Shown here one piece after another: positions 3,758 to 13,012 of a stretch of 13,012 bases of DNA. A program made the position numbers and the translations under genes. This DNA comes from Clostridia bacterium (lineage in GTDB: Bacteria > UBA6262 > WVXT01 > JAUXBS01). The first letter of the stretch is position 1. Every line of letters starts with the position of its first letter. The stretch is from contig JAUXDE010000045.1 in NCBI GenBank assembly GCA_030618495.1, positions 1-13,012 of the forward strand, read 5' to 3'. The notes under the pieces are model-generated. The model was not told the origin of the DNA. It ran no database searches and worked only from the letters and a program-made list of their open reading frames with translations.

Positions 3758-5389
3758 TTGGGAAAAGAAATAATTAAAAATAAAAAGATAGTTCCAATCA
3801 TAGTAGTTTGTTTGCTTGTTATTATGTTTATTCAGGCGGTACTAAGCATGCGCCTGAAATCCATGACTTTTGATGAAACTTCTCACCTGCCTGCAGGTTA
3901 CAGCTACCTGAAAACAGGTGATTACAGGTTGAATCAAGAACAGCCTCCCCTGATAAAACTACTTGCAGGGCTTCCTTTGTTATTCCTGGATTTAAAAATC
4001 CCTTTATACACTCAATACTGGGAAAACAGTTCGCAATATCAATTCGGCAAATTCTTTCTTTATTACTCAGGAAACAACGCCGAAAAAGTTATTTTCCTGG
4101 GACGCATCCCCATGGTACTGCTTGGAGTGCTATTAGGTTATTTCATTTTTCTCTGGACAAAAAAACTTTACGGAATAAAGGCGGGACTTTTTGCCCTGTT
4201 CTTCTATGTTTTTAGTCCCAATATACTTGCGCATACAAGGCTGGTAGTTATGGACCTGGGGCTGGGTTGTTTCATGTTGATTGCCTGTTACCAGGCGTGG
4301 AATTATCTTGAAAAACCTTCCATGTCCAAACTTGTCCTGACGGGCGTATTTACCGGGCTTGCCCTGGCAACCAAGTTTTCCGCGGTAATGCTCTTTGGCA
4401 TATTCCTGTTTTTGTTCGGTTACAGGACATTCGTTGACAGCGGCGGGGCAAAAGCCTTGTTCCCAGCCGGGAAGAGCCCCGGTTTAACGGACAGGACGTT
4501 CTTTGTATTATCAAGGCTCCTGGTTATCCTGATTATATCCATTGTGATAATCTACATCGCTTACGGACTGAAAGGCAATGCCCTCGGCATGTATAAAAAA
4601 GGCATGGATATGATATATTATAACCAGCGGCAAGGTTATAAATTCTACATGAACGGCAGGTTTTCGCTTAAGCCGTGGTGGTATTATTACGTGTATGCAT
4701 TCATTATCAAGACAACGATTCCCGCTCTGGTTATGGTGGTTTTTGCCGGGGTGCTCTTAAAAAAACAGAAACATAACCTGTATAACGAAATGTGGTTGTT
4801 GATACCGATTATTCTGATTTTCGTTTCCAGTTTCTTTGACACGCGCAATCTCGGACTGAGGAGGGTGTTGCCGGCATACCCGTTTCTATTTGTCTTTATA
4901 GGCAAGGTCGCGGGGGAAAACAAAACCTGGCTGTTTCCCGCAAAAAAGAATGTCCGCGCTGCTATTATCGCATTTCTCTGCGCAGGGCACCTTATGGCTT
5001 CCCTCATGATTTTCCCCGATTACCTTACCCATTTTAACGGGTTCGTCGGTGGGGCGAAGAACGGAATAAATTATCTTGATGATTCGAATATAGATTGGGG
5101 GCAGGACCTCAAGAGACTAAAAACCTACATGGATGAACATGATATTGCGGAGGTAAAACTGCAGTATTACGGTACTTCAGACATAAAATGCTACGGTATC
5201 AAAACGGTTCCGATAACCGATAAAGAACTGCTTGAAAGGCCTGATGCCGGTTATTATTACGCAATGAGCGCGCATTACCTTGCCCGTTTGAAATTAGCCG
5301 TTATTGAAGGTTCCGGGAAGCTTGACTGGCTGGAGGAATACGAGCCGGTTGATATAATAGGTAACACCATATATATATATAAATTTTAG
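3758..5389 (+). CDS. GT39/PMT-like membrane glycosyltransferase (GT-C fold)
   Basis: This 543-residue polytopic membrane protein resembles the dolichyl-/undecaprenyl-phosphate-sugar-dependent glycosyltransferases (PMT/ArnT type). After TM1 (about 11-30) the first periplasmic loop carries MTFDETSHLPAGYSYL with Asp39-Glu40, the position of the family's catalytic acid. NQEQPPLIKLLAGLP follows at 59-73, a second hallmark. About ten further hydrophobic segments follow. A C-terminal soluble part has LDDSNIDWGQDL, common in bacterial members, then a region ending in an IYIYKF strand. Such enzymes move a sugar from a polyprenyl-phosphate donor onto a protein or lipid on the periplasmic side; the acceptor is unknown. 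The start is the weakest point: TTG 3758 follows an in-frame TGA directly, and the next ATG (3824) would cut into TM1. The ribosome site is poor. Confidence 0.85.
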   Translation: MGKEIIKNKKIVPIIVVCLLVIMFIQAVLSMRLKSMTFDETSHLPAGYSYLKTGDYRLNQEQPPLIKLLAGLPLLFLDLKIPLYTQYWENSSQYQFGKFFLYYSGNNAEKVIFLGRIPMVLLGVLLGYFIFLWTKKLYGIKAGLFALFFYVFSPNILAHTRLVVMDLGLGCFMLIACYQAWNYLEKPSMSKLVLTGVFTGLALATKFSAVMLFGIFLFLFGYRTFVDSGGAKALFPAGKSPGLTDRTFFVLSRLLVILIISIVIIYIAYGLKGNALGMYKKGMDMIYYNQRQGYKFYMNGRFSLKPWWYYYVYAFIIKTTIPALVMVVFAGVLLKKQKHNLYNEMWLLIPIILIFVSSFFDTRNLGLRRVLPAYPFLFVFIGKVAGENKTWLFPAKKNVRAAIIAFLCAGHLMASLMIFPDYLTHFNGFVGGAKNGINYLDDSNIDWGQDLKRLKTYMDEHDIAEVKLQYYGTSDIKCYGIKTVPITDKELLERPDAGYYYAMSAHYLARLKLAVIEGSGKLDWLEEYEPVDIIGNTIYIYKF

Positions 5390-5400
5390 GGGTCAGACCT
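5389..5400. repeat. GGGGTCAGACCT motif between convergent stops
   Basis: GGTC-A-GACC (5391-5399) is a small perfect palindrome inside GGGGTCAGACCT. The TAG of the rightward GT39-like gene touches its left end and the TGA of the leftward gene is formed inside it. It is followed by a second overlapping palindrome, ACCTTAAGGT (5398-5407), and a short T-run. From memory, GGGGTCAGACC-like strings recur between genes in several environmental bacterial genomes near REP-associated transposases; only this single intergenic copy is seen here. The stems are too small to count as a confident terminator. Confidence 0.35.
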
Positions 5401-5839
5401 TAAGGTTTTTGAAGCCAGGGCTTAACTTCCTGCCCTCAAATACATTTTCAAACTTATTGAGTAAACGGAAGGTGAAGAAGTAGGTAAGCGGTTTTGAGTA
5501 ATTGGCAAACTGGTCCACCAGGAGGTGGACGGTGTAGCCGATATTAAAACCAAGCAGTATTTTATTCCTTGAAACAAGATATAGCGCCCAGGAAAGAATA
5601 AGGATTTCGTAAGAGTGCAATACGAGGTAGAATTTTTTCAACTTGTATCCGTTACAGGTGTCAAAGAAACCCCGGATGCTGAATTTGAAGTTGGAATATA
5701 ACAGGTAATCAAAGATATGGTCCAGGTCAATAAATACTCCCATGCAAAAACAGGCTAAGGAGGAATAGACCGACCTTGTCAGCAGGTATACGGCTCCGCT
5801 TAGAGGCAGTGAAATCAATAAGTGATTTTTTAGTTTCAT
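5393..5839 (-). CDS. Small membrane protein resembling DUF457/YdjM-type metal-dependent hydrolases
   Basis: This 148-residue leftward protein has about three to four hydrophobic segments and a set of spaced metal-ligand-type residues: Asn5-His6 at the N-terminus, DLDH at 38-41, LHSYE with His75, and HLLVDQ at 105-110 (His105, Asp109). That order of His, DxDH, His and HxxxD is the pattern of the small membrane-bound metal-dependent hydrolase families (DUF457/YdjM and relatives), some of which are thought to act on phospholipids. The exact family is uncertain and the substrate unknown. The ATG at 5839 lacks a visible Shine-Dalgarno, but a TATAAT on the minus strand (rc of 5851-5856) lies only 11 nt upstream, which could mean a nearly leaderless message. 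The gene is convergent with the GT39-like gene (3 nt between stops) and divergent from the TMTC-like gene. Confidence 0.6.
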   Translation of the reverse strand: MKLKNHLLISLPLSGAVYLLTRSVYSSLACFCMGVFIDLDHIFDYLLYSNFKFSIRGFFDTCNGYKLKKFYLVLHSYEILILSWALYLVSRNKILLGFNIGYTVHLLVDQFANYSKPLTYFFTFRLLNKFENVFEGRKLSPGFKNLKV

Positions 5840-5885
5840 TTTGGTTTTCTATTATAACATATTTTATCTTAAAGGGATGCGAATA

Positions 5886-7856
5886 ATGCAAAAAAAGAAA
5901 AAAGTTAATAGGAAAAAGAAGTCAAAAAAAATATCCGGGGGCAACCCGAAGAAACCGGTTTCTTCCGGAAAATCAGCATTGAAATCACGGGGTCCGAAAA
6001 CCGTTTCCGCAAGAAAACCTGCGGAGGCCAGGAGGCCCGGGGGGCGCGGGAGAAAACGCGGGAGAATAAAAACTTCAAAGACAAGAAAGCAGCGTGTTGT
6101 AAAAGAAAATCTTCAGGCAGTGTCGAACCCCGGAATACTGGAAAAAAAATGGGTTGCCGTTGTGTGTATAGTTTTTCTTTCCCTTATTATTTACTCCAAT
6201 ACGTTCCGGAACGGGTTTATGTATGATGATACGGCATTCATAACGGAAAATGATTCAATCAGAAGCCTTGATAACCCCGGCAGATTTTTTACGTCAATAA
6301 AATCTTTTTCAGCGAAAGGTAATTTCTTCATATACAGGCCCCTGGCAACGCTGGCTTTTGCCGTGGACTATGGTTTGTGGGGATTAAATCCGAAACAGTT
6401 TCATATTCAAAATATCCTGTTCCACGTTCTGAACGGTATACTTGTTTACCTGCTGATGAACATATTGGTAAAACATCGTCTTGCCTCGCTTGTAACGGCA
6501 TTGGTGTTTGTGTCCCATCCGGTCCAGACGGAGTCCGTTACATGGATTGCGGGCAGGAGCAACCTCATGTTCTCAGCGTTTTGGCTTACAGCCCTTATTT
6601 CTTATGCCAGGTTTCATAAAGTTAAAGGTTTAAAAAGAATAAAATATTTGTTGATTTCCCTGGGAGCCTATGCTTTCGGGCTGCTGTCAAAGGAAATGGC
6701 GGTTACCCTGCCGGTTATTTTAATATTGTATGACTTTTGTTCTGCCGATAAGAAAAGTTTTAAAACGGTATTTGCCAATGCCAGGTATTACCTGCTTTTC
6801 GGCATCGTTACAGGAGGGTATTTATACCTGAGGTATTCCGTCCTGGGCAGGATGAGCGGCCAGAACGAGTACATTGGCGGGAGTCTTTCCAGCGCGTTTC
6901 TTACGATGTCAAGGGGCTTGACGCATTACATCCAACTGTTGATTTACCCTGTCAGGTTAAGCGCCATTTACGTATTCTCCGTTTCCTCGTCACTTCTGGA
7001 GACACCCGTTATTTTCTCGCTGGCTATTTTACTGCTGCTGCTCATATTAACAGTTATACTGTTTAGAAAATCAAGGACAGCGTCCTTTGCTATAATATGG
7101 TTTTTTGTTACACTGTTTCCCGTGTGTAATATTATCCCCCTGCAGGATGTGACTATTGCCGAGAGGTTTCTTTACCTGCCGGCGGTAGGCTTCTGCATAC
7201 TGCTCGGATTGTTGAGTATGAAGGTATTTGATATACGAAACAAGGAAACGAAGAGGAGCGCGGGAGTGTTATTCGTTATCCTGCTTATAATATTTTTCTC
7301 CCTGAGGACCATAAGCAGGAATGCTGACTGGAAAGACGAAAATTCCTTCTGGAAAGCAACGGCGGAAACCGCCCCGAACAGTTACCGTGTCCACAATAGC
7401 CTGGGTTATTTATACATGAAAAGCGATATTAACCGGGCAATTAAATCATTTGAGCGGTCGCTTGAATTAAATCCTGATAATGCAAGAGCGCATAACAACC
7501 TTGCCATAGCGTATGCTGAAAAGGGCTGGTACGAAAAAGCTATAAAGAAATTCAAGGATGTTCTTGTAACTGACCCTAACGACAGTTCAACCCGCAGTAA
7601 CCTTGGCCTGGCGTATGTTAAGATAGGGTTTTATAATAATGCCGTCAAGGAATGCAGAAGAGCCGTAAAACTTAATCCAGCCAATGACATAGCTTACAAT
7701 AACCTGGGGCTTGCCTATGAAAAGAAAAAAAACTATTCCGAAGCGCTTAACCAGTTCAGGATTGCCGTTGAAAAGAATCAAGGCAATCTGAATGCCAGGG
7801 CAAATTATGCCCGCGTGTTTAAAATCCTCAATGAAAGAAAAATGAATATATATTGA
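5886..7856 (+). CDS. TMTC-like GT-C membrane protein with TPR array and basic N-terminal tail
   Basis: This 656-residue protein has three parts. Residues 1 to about 75 are a disordered, strongly basic tail with about 30 Lys/Arg. Residues about 89-480 are a polytopic GT-C membrane domain. Residues about 491-650 hold four to five TPR repeats (AHNNLAIAYAEKGWYEKAIKKF and similar). Membrane-domain hallmarks shared with the TMTC/DUF1736 family are NGFMYDD (Asp114-Asp115, the catalytic-loop acids) and HPVQTESVTWIAGRSNL at 211-227. Eukaryotic TMTC proteins transfer O-mannose to proteins; the bacterial substrate is unknown. The last helix is followed by SRNADWKDENSFW, which bridges to the TPRs. I chose ATG 5886 because AAAGGGA (5871-5877) lies 8 nt before it; the upstream TTG 5841 and ATG 5877 have no such site. 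It is the first gene of a tight operon. By family topology the TPRs should be periplasmic and the basic tail cytoplasmic. Confidence 0.85.
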   Translation: MQKKKKVNRKKKSKKISGGNPKKPVSSGKSALKSRGPKTVSARKPAEARRPGGRGRKRGRIKTSKTRKQRVVKENLQAVSNPGILEKKWVAVVCIVFLSLIIYSNTFRNGFMYDDTAFITENDSIRSLDNPGRFFTSIKSFSAKGNFFIYRPLATLAFAVDYGLWGLNPKQFHIQNILFHVLNGILVYLLMNILVKHRLASLVTALVFVSHPVQTESVTWIAGRSNLMFSAFWLTALISYARFHKVKGLKRIKYLLISLGAYAFGLLSKEMAVTLPVILILYDFCSADKKSFKTVFANARYYLLFGIVTGGYLYLRYSVLGRMSGQNEYIGGSLSSAFLTMSRGLTHYIQLLIYPVRLSAIYVFSVSSSLLETPVIFSLAILLLLLILTVILFRKSRTASFAIIWFFVTLFPVCNIIPLQDVTIAERFLYLPAVGFCILLGLLSMKVFDIRNKETKRSAGVLFVILLIIFFSLRTISRNADWKDENSFWKATAETAPNSYRVHNSLGYLYMKSDINRAIKSFERSLELNPDNARAHNNLAIAYAEKGWYEKAIKKFKDVLVTDPNDSSTRSNLGLAYVKIGFYNNAVKECRRAVKLNPANDIAYNNLGLAYEKKKNYSEALNQFRIAVEKNQGNLNARANYARVFKILNERKMNIY

Positions 7857-7878
7857 CCGCGGGAAGTGAAGCAAAAAC

Positions 7879-8247
7879 ATGAACAAAATATTAATAGTTG
7901 ACGATGAATTGTTTATAGTAGAGGGGTTGAAGGCATACTTTGAACTGGACGGGTTTGAAGTAATAACCGCCTCCAACGGCAGGGAGGCGATAGAAATGGC
8001 GAAAAGCCAAAAACCCGACTTGATAATGCTTGATATAATGATGCCTGATTTAAACGGCTGGCAGACCTTGAAAATGCTGAAGGAGGATGAGAGCACGAAA
8101 GAAATTCAGGTCATCATGTCGTCCGTCATGGGCAAAGACGAGGATATAGAAAAGAGTATTTCACTTGGCGCGTCGGATTATATTGTCAAATCGAACGATG
8201 CCGATAAGATCGTCGAAAAAATCAAAGAAATATTGAGTAAAATGTGA
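7879..8247 (+). CDS. Stand-alone CheY-like response regulator receiver
   Basis: This 122-residue protein is a single receiver domain with no output domain. Asp8-Asp9 (ILIVDDE) form the Mg-binding pocket, Asp52 (LIMLDIMMPD) is the phospho-acceptor, Ser81 takes the conserved Ser/Thr switch position and Lys104 is the conserved lysine. All phosphorylation residues are therefore present. The proline that normally follows the lysine is replaced by Ser105 (YIVKSN), a modest departure that may alter the beta5-alpha5 turn. It lies 22 nt after the first TMTC-like gene, and its TGA overlaps the ATG of the DUF2723 gene, so it is firmly embedded in the GT-C operon. No histidine kinase is in the window. 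It probably acts by protein-protein contact, perhaps on a membrane partner or a kinase hub; the target is unknown. The ribosome site (GGGAAGTGAAG) is imperfect. Confidence 0.93.
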   Translation: MNKILIVDDELFIVEGLKAYFELDGFEVITASNGREAIEMAKSQKPDLIMLDIMMPDLNGWQTLKMLKEDESTKEIQVIMSSVMGKDEDIEKSISLGASDYIVKSNDADKIVEKIKEILSKM

Positions 8248-10025
8248 TGAAAAAGAAAAACTACTTAATCGGAGCGGCTGTTTTCCTGGTATCTTTTGGT
8301 TTGTATACCAGGACGCTTTGTCCCACGATTTACACCCAGGACAGCGGGGAATTCATTACCACCGCCTGTACCCTGGGCGTATCCCATCCCTCAGGTTACC
8401 CGCTATATAACATCATAGGGAAATGTTTCTCATTTCTCCCTTTTAAGAACCCGGCTTTCAGGGTAAACCTGATGTCCGCGTTCTTCGGGGCGTTAACGGT
8501 GGCTCTTGTGTACTTCATAATTTTAAAATTGTGTTTTTCTGTCGTTCCCGCCGTTGCCGGCGCCATGTTCCTGTTGTTTTCAAGGATACTGTGGTCATTA
8601 TCAACGGTTGCCGAGGTATATTCGCTCAATGCTTTCTTTACGGCGCTATTAATCCTGGTTATCCTGAACTGGAATAACAGGATTACATGGCTGTACCTTC
8701 TGTCTTTTCTTTTCGGCCTGAGTTTAACCAACCACCAGACAATGCTTATATGCGGCATAGCCCTTGTATATTTCGCGCTGGTGTCCGGAAAAAACAACAC
8801 GTTTTCCTTGGGTAACCTGAAAATCATACTGCCGTTATTCCTGCTGGGACTTTCAATGTACCTGTACCTGTACGTCAGGGCTCTCGGGAAGCCGGCCCTG
8901 TGCTGGGGCGCGCCTGATTCATTAAACAGATTTATACGTATTATCATGAGGTCAGACTACGGGATGATGGAAATGGGAGCCGTGAAGGGTGTCCCCCGTT
9001 CAGCGGGTTTAATGTTGAAACAGCTGGGCGGGTACTGCGCCATGCTTTTAAATCAATTTAATATCGCAGGATTTTTAACGGGTATTGCCGGCATGTATTT
9101 CATGTATAAAAAACAATTGAAATTTTTTGTGTGTTCACTGATAATTTTCCTGTTATCCGGCCCTTGTTTTACGCTTCTGGCAAACATGCCGATGGATCCG
9201 CATTCAAAAGCAATGGTCGAGGTGTTTTATCTCCCTTCAATCATTGTTTTTTCGTTATGGATAGGAATGGCCATTGCGGGTATCAATAAAAAGTTCCGGT
9301 TGTTGTTTATTATCATTCCCCTTGTTACTTTGATATTAAACTTTAAAATACTTGATAAGAGCGATAATTATTATGCGTATAACTATGGAGAGAACGTTTT
9401 AAAAACACTGGACAGGAATGCGATTATTTTCACAAAAAGGGATGAAACCCGCAACTCCATCTGGTACATGCAGTTGGTGGAGAAGAAGAGGCAGGATGTG
9501 AAATTGGTGGTATTGCCGCTTCCTTACTGGTGGACGCAGAGCATAATGAGAAAATGGCCCGAGCTTGTTATGAAATTAAACAACCATAGAGAAGGAAATA
9601 TTAAAGGTATTATAAAGGATTATATGAACACATACCCGGTATATACAGACAACATTACAGAACCTTATATGAGGGAATTCTATGACTACTGGGTTCCATA
9701 TGGGATTGTATTTAAATTCTCAAGGGAAGGAAGGGCGAATGTCCCCGATGAACGAATCAGGGAAATGGGCGGGATAATAGATAGTTATAATTACAGGAAT
9801 GAGTATAAGACAACCCTGTGCGGTGATTTATTCAGCCGCGAGATAATTCATTATTATGCGGAATCGCATTTTAATTACGGGGCGATATATCACAACAGGG
9901 GACTGTATGCCGAGGGGAGGGACGCGTTCGCCGCGGCGCTTGAAATAGAACCGGATTATGAAGATGCCAGGAAGATATACGATATTGACAGGGAACTGGC
10001 GGCGGGGAAGAAGGGCAATGAGTAG
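8247..10025 (+). CDS. DUF2723-family GT-C-like membrane protein with a C-terminal TPR
   Basis: This 592-residue polytopic membrane protein has the DUF2723 signature near its N-terminus: TQDSGEF at 30-36 (Asp32 and Glu35, the acidic pair in the first external loop) and LGVSHPSGYPLY at 43-54. Roughly ten to twelve hydrophobic segments follow to about residue 375, then a soluble C-terminal region ending in one TPR-like repeat (SHFNYGAIYHNRGLYAEGRD, from about 540). DUF2723 proteins are related to the PMT/GT39 superfamily and are widespread in Bacteroidetes and candidate phyla; biochemical activity is poorly defined, though transfer from a polyprenyl-phosphate sugar is expected. ATG 8247 overlaps the receiver gene's TGA (TGATG) and is preferred over GTG 8244. 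No strong ribosome site is visible, so expression likely depends on translational coupling with the receiver. Confidence 0.87.
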   Translation: MKKKNYLIGAAVFLVSFGLYTRTLCPTIYTQDSGEFITTACTLGVSHPSGYPLYNIIGKCFSFLPFKNPAFRVNLMSAFFGALTVALVYFIILKLCFSVVPAVAGAMFLLFSRILWSLSTVAEVYSLNAFFTALLILVILNWNNRITWLYLLSFLFGLSLTNHQTMLICGIALVYFALVSGKNNTFSLGNLKIILPLFLLGLSMYLYLYVRALGKPALCWGAPDSLNRFIRIIMRSDYGMMEMGAVKGVPRSAGLMLKQLGGYCAMLLNQFNIAGFLTGIAGMYFMYKKQLKFFVCSLIIFLLSGPCFTLLANMPMDPHSKAMVEVFYLPSIIVFSLWIGMAIAGINKKFRLLFIIIPLVTLILNFKILDKSDNYYAYNYGENVLKTLDRNAIIFTKRDETRNSIWYMQLVEKKRQDVKLVVLPLPYWWTQSIMRKWPELVMKLNNHREGNIKGIIKDYMNTYPVYTDNITEPYMREFYDYWVPYGIVFKFSREGRANVPDERIREMGGIIDSYNYRNEYKTTLCGDLFSREIIHYYAESHFNYGAIYHNRGLYAEGRDAFAAALEIEPDYEDARKIYDIDRELAAGKKGNE

Positions 10026-12027
10026 AAAAGCGTGTGTAATCATAATAATTGCCGTATCGTTCGTTGTTTTCGCTAATTCCTTCAGAAACGGTTTCGTTCT
10101 TGATGATGTATTCATCATACAGAAGAATAAAACTATCAGGGACCTGGCCAATATCCCGGAGTTCTTTTCCAGCGATTACTGGGAGGGAACTCGTTATAAG
10201 GGGGAAAGTTCAGCGTTGTACAGGCCGCTGGTAATCATCTCTTATGCGGTGGATTATGCGGTATGGAAGCTCAATCCCTTCGGTTACCATATTCTTAACC
10301 TGGTCCTTCATACCCTCAACGGCCTGCTGATATTCTACCTGGCGCTGATTATCCTGGGGAAGGATATCCGCTCAGCTCTTTTTGTGTCGTTGTTGTTCAT
10401 CGTTCATCCCGTTCATGTTGAAGCCGTTGCCGGGATAGTGGGCCGCGCGGAGGTTGCGGCGGTTTTCTTCCTGCTCGTTGCGTTCATGGCATACGCTCTC
10501 AAGGATAATGTATTAAAAATGAAGCATGGCTATGCTGTTTCTCTGTTTTCGTTCGGTCTTGCGCTGTTAACCAAGGAAACGGCATTGATATTGCCGGCAA
10601 TAATCGTACTGTATGACCTTTTCAGGTTAGGGGATTTGAGGGAGTTGAAGAAAAGAATCGCGCGTTACGCGGGTTACATAGGTGTAGTAATAGTGTATTT
10701 TTTCGTAAGGTTTCTTGCCCTGGGGACCGTATTTTCGCCTGCGGGAAAAGGTTTCTTTTACGGACAGACAACGCTGACGCGGCTTTTGACGATGTCCAGG
10801 GTGTTCGTTTCGTATATAAAGCTCCTGGTTTACCCTGTCAACCTCAGGACTGATTACAATGATTTTAGTTTTTCAACTTCACCTGACCTGGCCGTGGTTC
10901 TTTCCGTTACGGTTCTGGTTTTTATATTCTTTTTGTTCATCCGCGGTTATCGAAACCAGAAGCCGGTTTTCTTTTCCCTGGGTTTGTTCCTGGCAGGCCT
11001 TTTTCCCGTTTCAAATATCATTCCCTTTGGCGCGGTAATGGCGGAGAGGTTTCTTTACCTGCCTTCAGTCGGGTACTGCCTGCTTGCGGGTATCATGGTG
11101 GCGAAAGGTTACGGGACCGCAGCCGGCCCGAAGCGGGGAAGGCGCGAAATTCTCGCCATCCTGCTGCTTGTATTTCTTGGGATGGTGACGATGAAGTACA
11201 ATACCAGGTGGTACAGCAACGATACCCTGTGGAACTATGCCGTGAAAAAATCACCCGGTAACGCCCGTATACACTATGCTCTCGGTGTCGTTCAGCTTGA
11301 AAAGAAAGATTATGAAGGGGCAATAAGAGCATTCGAAAAGAGCGTTCAAATAGATCCGCGCATACCCGAGGCGTATAATAACCTTTCCGTCTGCTATAAC
11401 AGTATAAACATGCATGAGAAAGCGGTACTCGCAAGCGAGACGGCGCTCAAGCATAAGCCGGATTACTATGAGGCATGTATAAACATGGGTAACGCTTATA
11501 AGAGCATGGGTAATAGCGATAAAGCGATAGAGTCATATGGTAAAGCCATTAAGTTCGCCCCTGAAAATGCCGATGCCCATTACAACCTTGGGTTGTTGTA
11601 TTATGGACGGAAGAACCATACTAAAGCGATGAAGAGTTTCATTAAGATAACGCGCATGGATCCGACCTATGAGAGCGCGTGGATAGGGGTGAGCGCCGTG
11701 TTGATAGAGCAGGAAAATTATGCCAGGGCAATAGAGGAACTGGAGAAGGCGGCCGGGTTCCTGCCGGACAGCGCGGATATTTACGACCGGCTCGGGCTCG
11801 CTTGTTATTATAAGGGGGAGTTCCGGAAAGCGGTGGTAAAACTAAAAAAGGCCATTGAACTGAATCCCGGCAATGCGGTAACCCTCAACAGGCTGGGTTC
11901 CGCATACGGCAACATGGGGATGTATAAGGAAGCTCTCGTGGAGTTCAGAAAGGCCCTGGAAATTAACCCCGGTTACGGCGAAGCAAGGGATAACTATAAC
12001 AAACTGGTTGAAATCGGCATTAAGTAA
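10018..12027 (+). CDS. TMTC-like GT-C membrane protein with seven TPRs
   Basis: This 669-residue protein is a paralogue of the TMTC-like protein at 5886-7856 but lacks the basic tail. It begins with a short MSRK and TM1 (about 5-20). NSFRNGFVLDD follows with Asp29-Asp30 in the catalytic loop, and HPVHVEAVAGIVGRAEV lies at 130-146. Further shared segments include AERFLYLPSVGYC and a last helix leading into RWYSNDTLW. From about 416 to 653 there are seven consecutive 34-residue TPRs, the sixth and seventh closest to consensus (AIELNPGN, ALEINPGY). Predicted activity is membrane-linked sugar transfer onto protein, with the TPRs selecting or holding the acceptor. ATG 10018 overlaps the end of the DUF2723 gene by 8 nt (ATGAGTAG) with GGGGAAG at suitable distance. 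The in-frame ATG at 9958 lies 68 nt inside the upstream gene and adds a basic segment, so it is less likely. It is the last gene of the operon. Confidence 0.87.
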   Translation: MSRKACVIIIIAVSFVVFANSFRNGFVLDDVFIIQKNKTIRDLANIPEFFSSDYWEGTRYKGESSALYRPLVIISYAVDYAVWKLNPFGYHILNLVLHTLNGLLIFYLALIILGKDIRSALFVSLLFIVHPVHVEAVAGIVGRAEVAAVFFLLVAFMAYALKDNVLKMKHGYAVSLFSFGLALLTKETALILPAIIVLYDLFRLGDLRELKKRIARYAGYIGVVIVYFFVRFLALGTVFSPAGKGFFYGQTTLTRLLTMSRVFVSYIKLLVYPVNLRTDYNDFSFSTSPDLAVVLSVTVLVFIFFLFIRGYRNQKPVFFSLGLFLAGLFPVSNIIPFGAVMAERFLYLPSVGYCLLAGIMVAKGYGTAAGPKRGRREILAILLLVFLGMVTMKYNTRWYSNDTLWNYAVKKSPGNARIHYALGVVQLEKKDYEGAIRAFEKSVQIDPRIPEAYNNLSVCYNSINMHEKAVLASETALKHKPDYYEACINMGNAYKSMGNSDKAIESYGKAIKFAPENADAHYNLGLLYYGRKNHTKAMKSFIKITRMDPTYESAWIGVSAVLIEQENYARAIEELEKAAGFLPDSADIYDRLGLACYYKGEFRKAVVKLKKAIELNPGNAVTLNRLGSAYGNMGMYKEALVEFRKALEINPGYGEARDNYNKLVEIGIK

Positions 12028-12048
12028 AGTGGCATGCTGTGACTTTTT
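12026..12048 (+). terminator. Weak intrinsic terminator candidate
   Basis: AAAGT and ACTTT flank an imperfect stem (GGCA/TGTG around a TGC loop, with one G-G mismatch and one G-T wobble), and the run TTTTT at 12044-12048 ends it. It begins inside the stop codon of the seven-TPR protein gene and is the only hairpin-plus-T-run in the 166-nt gap before the convergent gene. The stem is short and imperfect, so efficiency is doubtful. Confidence 0.35.
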
Positions 12049-12193
12049 GCGGATAGTTGCAAGTTCTATAAAAGATATCATAATATGAAATGAAATCCGT
12101 ATGCCCCGAATATCAGAGTAGTAACACTACACTAGCCTTTCATCGCTTTAAATACACCTGATTGGGATTAGATGTGTAGGCTACTTTTATTCT

Positions 12194-13012
12194 TCATTGC
12201 TGTCTCTGGAGGGCTTTTGCTTTTTCTTCATCTATTGCTGCCAGTTTTTCTTTCCCCAGTTTTTTGTACGCAAGACTACGAAAGTAATATGCATCTACAT
12301 TCCCGGGATCCAATTCTATTGACACACTTAAATCACTTATTGCTCTATCGGCAATTCCCATGTTCCAGTAAGTAATCCCTCTGTTATTATATGCCTTTGA
12401 ATTATCAGATTTTATTTCTATAGCCTTATTGAAATCTAATATAGCTTTTTCATAAAACTTTTTTACCCCATACATAATCCCACGATTACAGTATGCGTTT
12501 GTATCTTCAGGGTCTAATTCTATTGCTTTTGAAAAAACATCTATTGCTTCATCATAAAGGCCTCTTTTATAATATTCAGCTCCACGATGATAGTATTCCT
12601 CTTTTATTTTAAGATATTTTTCAAGTGTATTATTTAATTCCGGTATTACACCATTATATGTATCCTTCTTTTCATAAGCAGTTTTCAGGTTTCTATATGC
12701 AGCAGAGTAGTCTGGATTTATTTTTATTGCTTTATTAAAATCAGCTATTGCTTTATCATAAAGTTTTTTCTTTCCATAAGTAACTCCTCTGTTATTATAT
12801 CCTTGTGAGAATTCAGGATATAGTTCTATTGCCTTACTATAATCAGCTATCGCTTTATCATAAAATCCTTTTTTGTTATAAACATTTCCCCGGCTATTTA
12901 AAGCCTTCACTGAATATGGATATATCTGTAAAGTTTTAGACCACAAAGTAAATCTATCTTTCCAGTCTGTATTTCTATTTATTGTAAGTCCGGAAAATAT
13001 AATGATAATTAT
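12194..13012 (-). CDS. C-terminal part of a TPR protein, probably a third TMTC-like protein (5' end outside window)
   Basis: The leftward frame is open from the right edge of the window to TGA at 12194-12196, giving 272 visible residues. A free-standing TPR protein starting at TTG 12946 is possible, but the frame continues upstream. It encodes a hydrophobic IIIIIFSGL stretch, then NRNTDWKDRFTLWSKTLQ. The homologous junction in the protein at 5886-7856 reads SRNADWKDENSFWKATAE, directly after its last helix. This therefore looks like the end of a GT-C membrane domain followed by seven TPR units. The second, fourth, fifth and sixth are near consensus (for example YDKAIADFNKAIKINPDY), the third is degenerate and the last is a capping helix pair. 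Codon use is much more AT-rich (17 G+C in the 60 nt at 12361-12420) than in the preceding operon (35 in 60 at 11761-11820), suggesting a different origin. It faces the preceding operon. Confidence 0.8.
   Translation of the reverse strand: MIIIIFSGLTINRNTDWKDRFTLWSKTLQIYPYSVKALNSRGNVYNKKGFYDKAIADYSKAIELYPEFSQGYNNRGVTYGKKKLYDKAIADFNKAIKINPDYSAAYRNLKTAYEKKDTYNGVIPELNNTLEKYLKIKEEYYHRGAEYYKRGLYDEAIDVFSKAIELDPEDTNAYCNRGIMYGVKKFYEKAILDFNKAIEIKSDNSKAYNNRGITYWNMGIADRAISDLSVSIELDPGNVDAYYFRSLAYKKLGKEKLAAIDEEKAKALQRQQ

Follow-up and report, generated by a model that had tools for sequence, protein, structure and literature searches.

What would a bacterium do with relatives of TMTC and TMEM260, animal O-mannosyltransferases recognised recently, when these lie together with a PMT-like gene in a single short locus? 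The question is raised by the window analysed here, an entire 13,012-nt contig (C90, JAUXDE010000045.1) of a Clostridia bacterium genome (1.69 Mb, 179 contigs, 98% complete), in which 9.25 kb carry genes for GT-C membrane glycosyltransferase-like proteins, namely one PMT_2/GT39-like, two complete TMTC-like (TMTC-A and TMTC-B), and one TMEM260-like gene, together with the final part of another TMTC-like gene (TMTC-C; Table 1). In the literature searched, we found no function assigned to the many bacterial TMTC and TMEM260 relatives. We consider protein O-glycosylation by these enzymes the best reading, with a probability of roughly 55%, because a match to human TMEM260 spans nearly the whole glycosyltransferase (GT) half, TMTC motifs and GT-C folds are present, gene order is kept in a sister locus, and relatives of these genes adjoin pilin genes.

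Under this reading, the GT-C enzymes would do in the inner membrane what TMTC, TMEM260, and PMT enzymes do in the lumen of the endoplasmic reticulum: each would take one sugar from a polyprenyl-phosphate carrier at the periplasmic face and pass it to an acceptor, most probably a Ser/Thr residue of a secreted or surface protein. Mannose as that sugar is a guess by analogy with the animal enzymes. The tetratricopeptide repeat (TPR) arrays, which follow the last membrane helix, should be periplasmic and could hold acceptor proteins, while TMTC-A, a stand-alone receiver, the TMEM260-like enzyme, and TMTC-B would be produced as one translationally coupled unit, possibly under the control of the receiver.

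The TMEM260-like protein scores well above the PF11028 cut-off of 24.2 bits (Table 1) and has one C-terminal TPR. When a six-sequence profile of its family was compared with the PDB, human TMEM260 (9rql) was the sole match (242 bits, E 9e-71), with residues 29–467 aligning to the GT half and the GDSGEL and GVxHPPGYPL motifs kept. The first loop of the window protein carries QDSGE, in which D33 is invariant in 16 relatives and D33, S34, and E36 are invariant among the six closest. Human TMEM260 (GT117; 9rql/9rqm/9rqn) is a proven dolichyl-phosphate-mannose protein O-mannosyltransferase (PMC11292533). The bacterial protein differs from it in having a C-terminal TPR-like repeat and a gene translationally coupled to that of a receiver, and an IPT-domain acceptor is not expected. 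A literature search of limited extent returned nothing relevant on the function of DUF2723 or of bacterial TMEM260 proteins.

The TMTC-like proteins share with human TMTC1–4 (GT105) a membrane GT-C half followed by a TPR array, as seen by model for TMTC-B and by sequence for TMTC-A. Human TMTCs carry seven motifs, M1–M7, and full-length TMTC-like proteins in prokaryotes have already been mentioned, without a function (PMC7801869). TMTC-A and TMTC-B keep DD (M1), the YRP of SHKSYRP (M2), the KE of KE(T/Q)xxT (M4), and ERxxY (M7) in the same order as the human proteins, reading YDD (first loop), YRP, KEMAVT, and ERFLY in TMTC-A and LDD, YRP, KET, DY, and ERFLY in TMTC-B; the cadherin acceptors of the human case are lacking. 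By Pfam, the open reading frame (ORF) of TMTC-A (5841–7856) matches PMT_2 (28.1 bits) and TPRs, and that of TMTC-B (9958–12027) matches TPRs (149 bits). In the AlphaFold model of TMTC-B (mean predicted local distance difference test score, pLDDT, 85.9), residues 1–406 resemble yeast STT3 (Z 21.5, 331 aligned) and ArnT 5f15 (Z 20.7, 335 aligned), and residues from about 410 to 668 match a consensus TPR superhelix (Z 27.5). These GT-C matches come from VIA-align, as a Foldseek search with full TMTC-B was swamped by the TPRs; a PDB sequence search with the TMTC GT half gave no match. TMTC-A also has a Lys/Arg-rich cytosolic N-terminal extension of ~80 residues (5886–6140; Lys/Arg 32/84, 2 acidic), poorly kept in its sister orthologue. 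For TMTC-C, Pfam finds TPRs only, the N-domain hidden Markov model scores 30.7 bits, and the first 30 residues form the TMTC helix-11/TPR junction (RNTDWKDRFTLW; TMTC-A counterpart RNADWKDENSFW; motif RNTDWKD..LW).

The PMT_2 protein exceeds the Pfam cut-offs for both PMT_2 (Table 1) and PMT (35.8 bits), which assigns it by sequence to the broad PMT_2/PMT clan only. Its AlphaFold model (pLDDT 83.4) is closest in fold to Pmt4 (Z 27.2, root-mean-square deviation 3.5, 387 aligned) and ArnT (Z 26.2), with which it shares the first-loop DE (Pmt4/POMT being GT39 enzymes). Within the first-loop FDE, D39/E40 are invariant across 11 relatives, as is D442xN..DWG of a C-terminal DSNxDWGQD motif. It differs from Pmt4 and ArnT in its low identity (~13%) and in a C-terminal domain of its own that bears this motif. 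A MIR domain between membrane helices is a hallmark of eukaryotic PMTs, and the Pfam scan of the window protein gave no MIR match. The sequence-only reading of this DNA had placed five GT-C ORFs here with intact acidic first-loop motifs and had proposed GT-C active-site folds as a check: the ORFs are borne out by Pfam and by the TMTC-C junction motif, the motifs are indeed intact (FDE in the PMT_2 protein, DSGE in the TMEM260-like protein, YDD in TMTC-A, and LDD in TMTC-B), and the PMT_2 and TMTC-B models match Pmt4/ArnT and STT3/ArnT, respectively.

TMTC-A, the receiver, the TMEM260-like gene, and TMTC-B run head-to-tail with gaps of about +22, −4, and −8 bp, and look translationally coupled. 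The TMEM260-like start (GTGATG, 8244–8249) shares bases with the stop of the receiver, and the TMEM260-like stop overlaps the ATG of TMTC-B at 10018, which is preceded by a purine-rich AAGAAGGG. The starts used here are probable corrections, to ATG 5886 for TMTC-A (ORF from TTG 5841), GTG 8244 or ATG 8247 for the TMEM260-like gene, and ATG 10018 for TMTC-B. The earlier description of the GT-C genes as "nearly one operon" therefore holds for three of the five (TMTC-A, TMEM260-like, and TMTC-B) and fails for the PMT_2 gene, parted from this four-gene unit by the opposite-strand YdjM-like gene, and for TMTC-C, which is convergent with TMTC-B. As an observation in its own right, a stand-alone receiver is here coupled translationally to a membrane glycosyltransferase gene, a pairing kept in the sister genome. 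Neither Rfam families nor tRNAs were found in the window, and promoter matches there were no more frequent than expected by chance.

Table 1. Genes of the window from left to right, followed by the two pilin-adjacent TMTC-like loci of the genus
Feature	Position	Strand	Remarks
DUF6088/AbiEii toxin-antitoxin-like pair	283–1915
Flavin reductase
ExbB/TolQ-like
ExbD-like			Label called from sequence alone
PMT_2/GT39-like GT-C membrane protein	3758..5389	+	543 aa, without TPR; Pfam PMT_2 46.3 bits
YdjM-like small membrane protein	5393..5839	−	YdjM 18.9 bits, sub-threshold
TMTC-A	5886..7856	+	GT-C half, then C-terminal TPR array
Stand-alone CheY-like receiver	7879..8247	+	Pfam Response_reg 100 bits
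TMEM260-like GT-C protein (PF11028, former DUF2723)	8244..10025	+	PF11028 123.7 bits
TMTC-B	10018..12027	+	GT-C half and long TPR array
TMTC-C, last transmembrane helix and TPR array	12194..13012	−	Junction motif, TPRs; gene cut by contig end
Pilin-adjacent TMTC-like, locus L074 (G000:C15)	3–1261
Pilin-adjacent TMTC-like, locus L091 (G001:C87)	1–2064

Conservation within the genus was assessed against one other JAUXBS01 genome (G001, 'Clostridia bacterium' CSMAG_2805), in which contig C137 (locus L069) carries, in order, flavin reductase, ExbB-like, ExbD-like, PMT_2, YdjM-like (9940–10302, minus strand), and TMTC-A genes, followed by two extra PMT_2-TPR proteins (737 and 664 aa), a MORN-repeat protein, the receiver, and a TMEM260-like gene cut by the contig end. 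Identity to the window proteins is 71% for PMT_2, 69% for the GT half of TMTC-A, 76% for the receiver, and 74% for the TMEM260-like protein. The TPR half of TMTC-A is 66% identical and so about as conserved as the GT half; rapid divergence driven by acceptors is not seen in this single orthologue pair, which lends no support to the suggestion of the sequence-only reading that the TPR arrays choose acceptors. The neighbourhood conservation that this reading had set as a check is found in the sister genome, where the PMT_2-(YdjM)-TMTC-A-receiver-TMEM260 order is kept with GT-C genes added, while beyond the genus mostly pairs are seen. In the four genomes of the sister family in the same order, TMEM260-like matches are absent, and a single TMTC-like match is present in each of two.

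Further support for protein acceptors of the TMTC-like and TMEM260-like families comes from relatives that adjoin pilin genes. Each of the two genomes of the genus has a PilB-PilT-PilC-pilin (type IV) locus in which the pilin is immediately followed by a TMTC-like gene. Among 30 TMTC loci, including those of a broad sample, a pilin within 1.5 kb was found in the sister genome only, so the link between TMTC-like genes and pilins is one at the genus level. In seven type IV pilus loci of Patescibacteria (L126, L138, L166, L169, L176, L179, and L182), a TMEM260-like gene comes directly after a pilin, at a distance of 32–115 bp, and PilD is at most two genes further on in four of the seven (one gene lying between in L182 and L169) and more distant in L138. 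These TMEM260-like proteins are candidate pilin glycosyltransferases, a proposal based on seven like-arranged loci and not on statistics: at the ORF level, pilins were not significantly enriched around TMEM260-like genes (p 0.25), in part because pilus loci carry several pilins. In Pseudomonas, TfpO and TfpW, encoded beside the pilin, glycosylate it (PMC11841053), and the genus and Patescibacteria relatives, placed directly after pilin genes, resemble them in gene context. With no pilin gene of its own, the window cluster lacks the pilin adjacency of pilin-specific glycosyltransferases. A comparable link in Elusimicrobia was rejected, as the supposed pilin cluster proved to be RsmG, in MnmG-TMEM260-RsmG loci.

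A survey of 145 genomes from across the bacteria found TMEM260-like matches in 55, TMTC-like matches in 43, and the window PMT_2 family in 16. TMEM260-like genes were commoner where the PMT_2 family was present (12/16 versus 43/129 genomes, p 0.002), and, by an approximate hand count, of the 26 PMT_2 genes in other genomes, 4 have a TMTC-like gene no more than 10 kb away, against ~0.5 expected (Poisson p 0.002). All three families were found together outside the genus on only one contig, from Elusimicrobia (L114); elsewhere there are pairs, PMT_2 with TMTC in three other genomes. Many Elusimicrobia genomes also hold head-to-tail operons of the form MoxR-DUF58-BatA-VWA-TMEM260 (two or three in a row)-PMT_2-DUF4175, with PMT_2 of the window family (L113, L115, L125, L158, L161, L163, and L164; also L116, L160, L174, and L180), the PMT_2 gene following the TMEM260 tandem in most of them. 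We know of no description of a Bat-type system linked to GT-C glycosyltransferases.

Several points weigh against protein O-glycosylation by the window enzymes. There is no obvious acceptor gene in the window, a dolichyl-phosphate-mannose synthase was not established in the host, the host TMTC-like genes mostly adjoin unrelated housekeeping genes, and ArnT-like GT-C enzymes, which modify lipids or polymers, have the same fold. PF08409 (TMTC_DUF1736) stays under its cut-off of 27 bits in TMTC-B (16.8–18.3 bits; 16.8 with the N-terminal half alone) and has no match in TMTC-A, while M5 (DW) reads DY in TMTC-B and is missing in TMTC-A; it is for these reasons that we call the proteins TMTC-like. 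M3 (RxD) reads RxE or RxN, and M6 (PxxP) is kept only in part. The alterations of M3, M5, and M6 would suit TMTC-like proteins that are inactive scaffolds, with the TPR array as the useful part, which we nevertheless regard as very improbable, given that DD, RP, and K185 vary little or not at all among the compared TMTC-like paralogues, as catalytic constraint predicts. It is also doubtful, though considerably less so, that the enzymes instead modify glycolipids or surface polymers, in the manner of ArnT or of side-chain-adding GT-C enzymes, with the TPR arrays organising a polysaccharide complex. The nearly equal fit of the PMT_2 model to ArnT and Pmt4 and the broad clan assignment by Pfam would allow this, whereas the adjoining of related genes to pilin genes speaks for proteins, as does the fact that the TMEM260-like and TMTC-like relatives of known function are protein O-mannosyltransferases (PMC11292533).

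A somewhat stronger contender, if still an unlikely one, is that the locus has no joint function and that amplified GT-C genes with separate substrates were grouped by duplication and recombination, which is compatible with protein O-glycosylation by the single enzymes. The host genome yields ~19 TMTC-like, 6 TMEM260-like, and 12 PMT hits in its 1.69 Mb, so the clustering may owe part to paralogue expansion; extra GT-C genes are inserted in the sister locus, GT genes lie on both strands, and the full set is seldom kept outside the genus. Random placement would put five GT-C genes among seven consecutive genes in at most ~1/10,000 cases (30–36 GT-C genes among 1,700), a weak null because duplication likewise clusters genes. 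Against chance grouping stand the TMTC-A-receiver-TMEM260 order kept in the sister genome, the co-occurrence of the PMT_2 and TMEM260-like families, and the excess of PMT_2 genes near TMTC-like genes. Returning to protein O-glycosylation, we advance only tentatively, and think rather unlikely in full, the wider proposal that a small candidate bacterial lineage uses relatives of animal O-mannosylation families jointly for O-glycosylation of envelope proteins, in which the TMTC-like and TMEM260-like branches would naturally modify type IV pilins and related secreted proteins. The compact locus kept in the sister genome and the pilin-adjacent relatives nonetheless supply acceptor candidates specific enough to test and a way towards the activity that was ancestral in the TMTC and TMEM260 families.

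Local GT-C clusters were also noted elsewhere, with four TMTC-like genes and a PMT_2 gene at G034:C4:275148-290642, a PMT_2-TMTC-PMT_2 arrangement at G102:C85:6353-14667, and tandem TMTC-like genes on G047:C15. Upstream of the flavin reductase, the DUF6088 and AbiEii toxin-antitoxin-like pair of the window is not found at the same place in L069; pairs that look similar (about 270 and 265 aa) lie near TMEM260-like genes in L129, L140, and L148.

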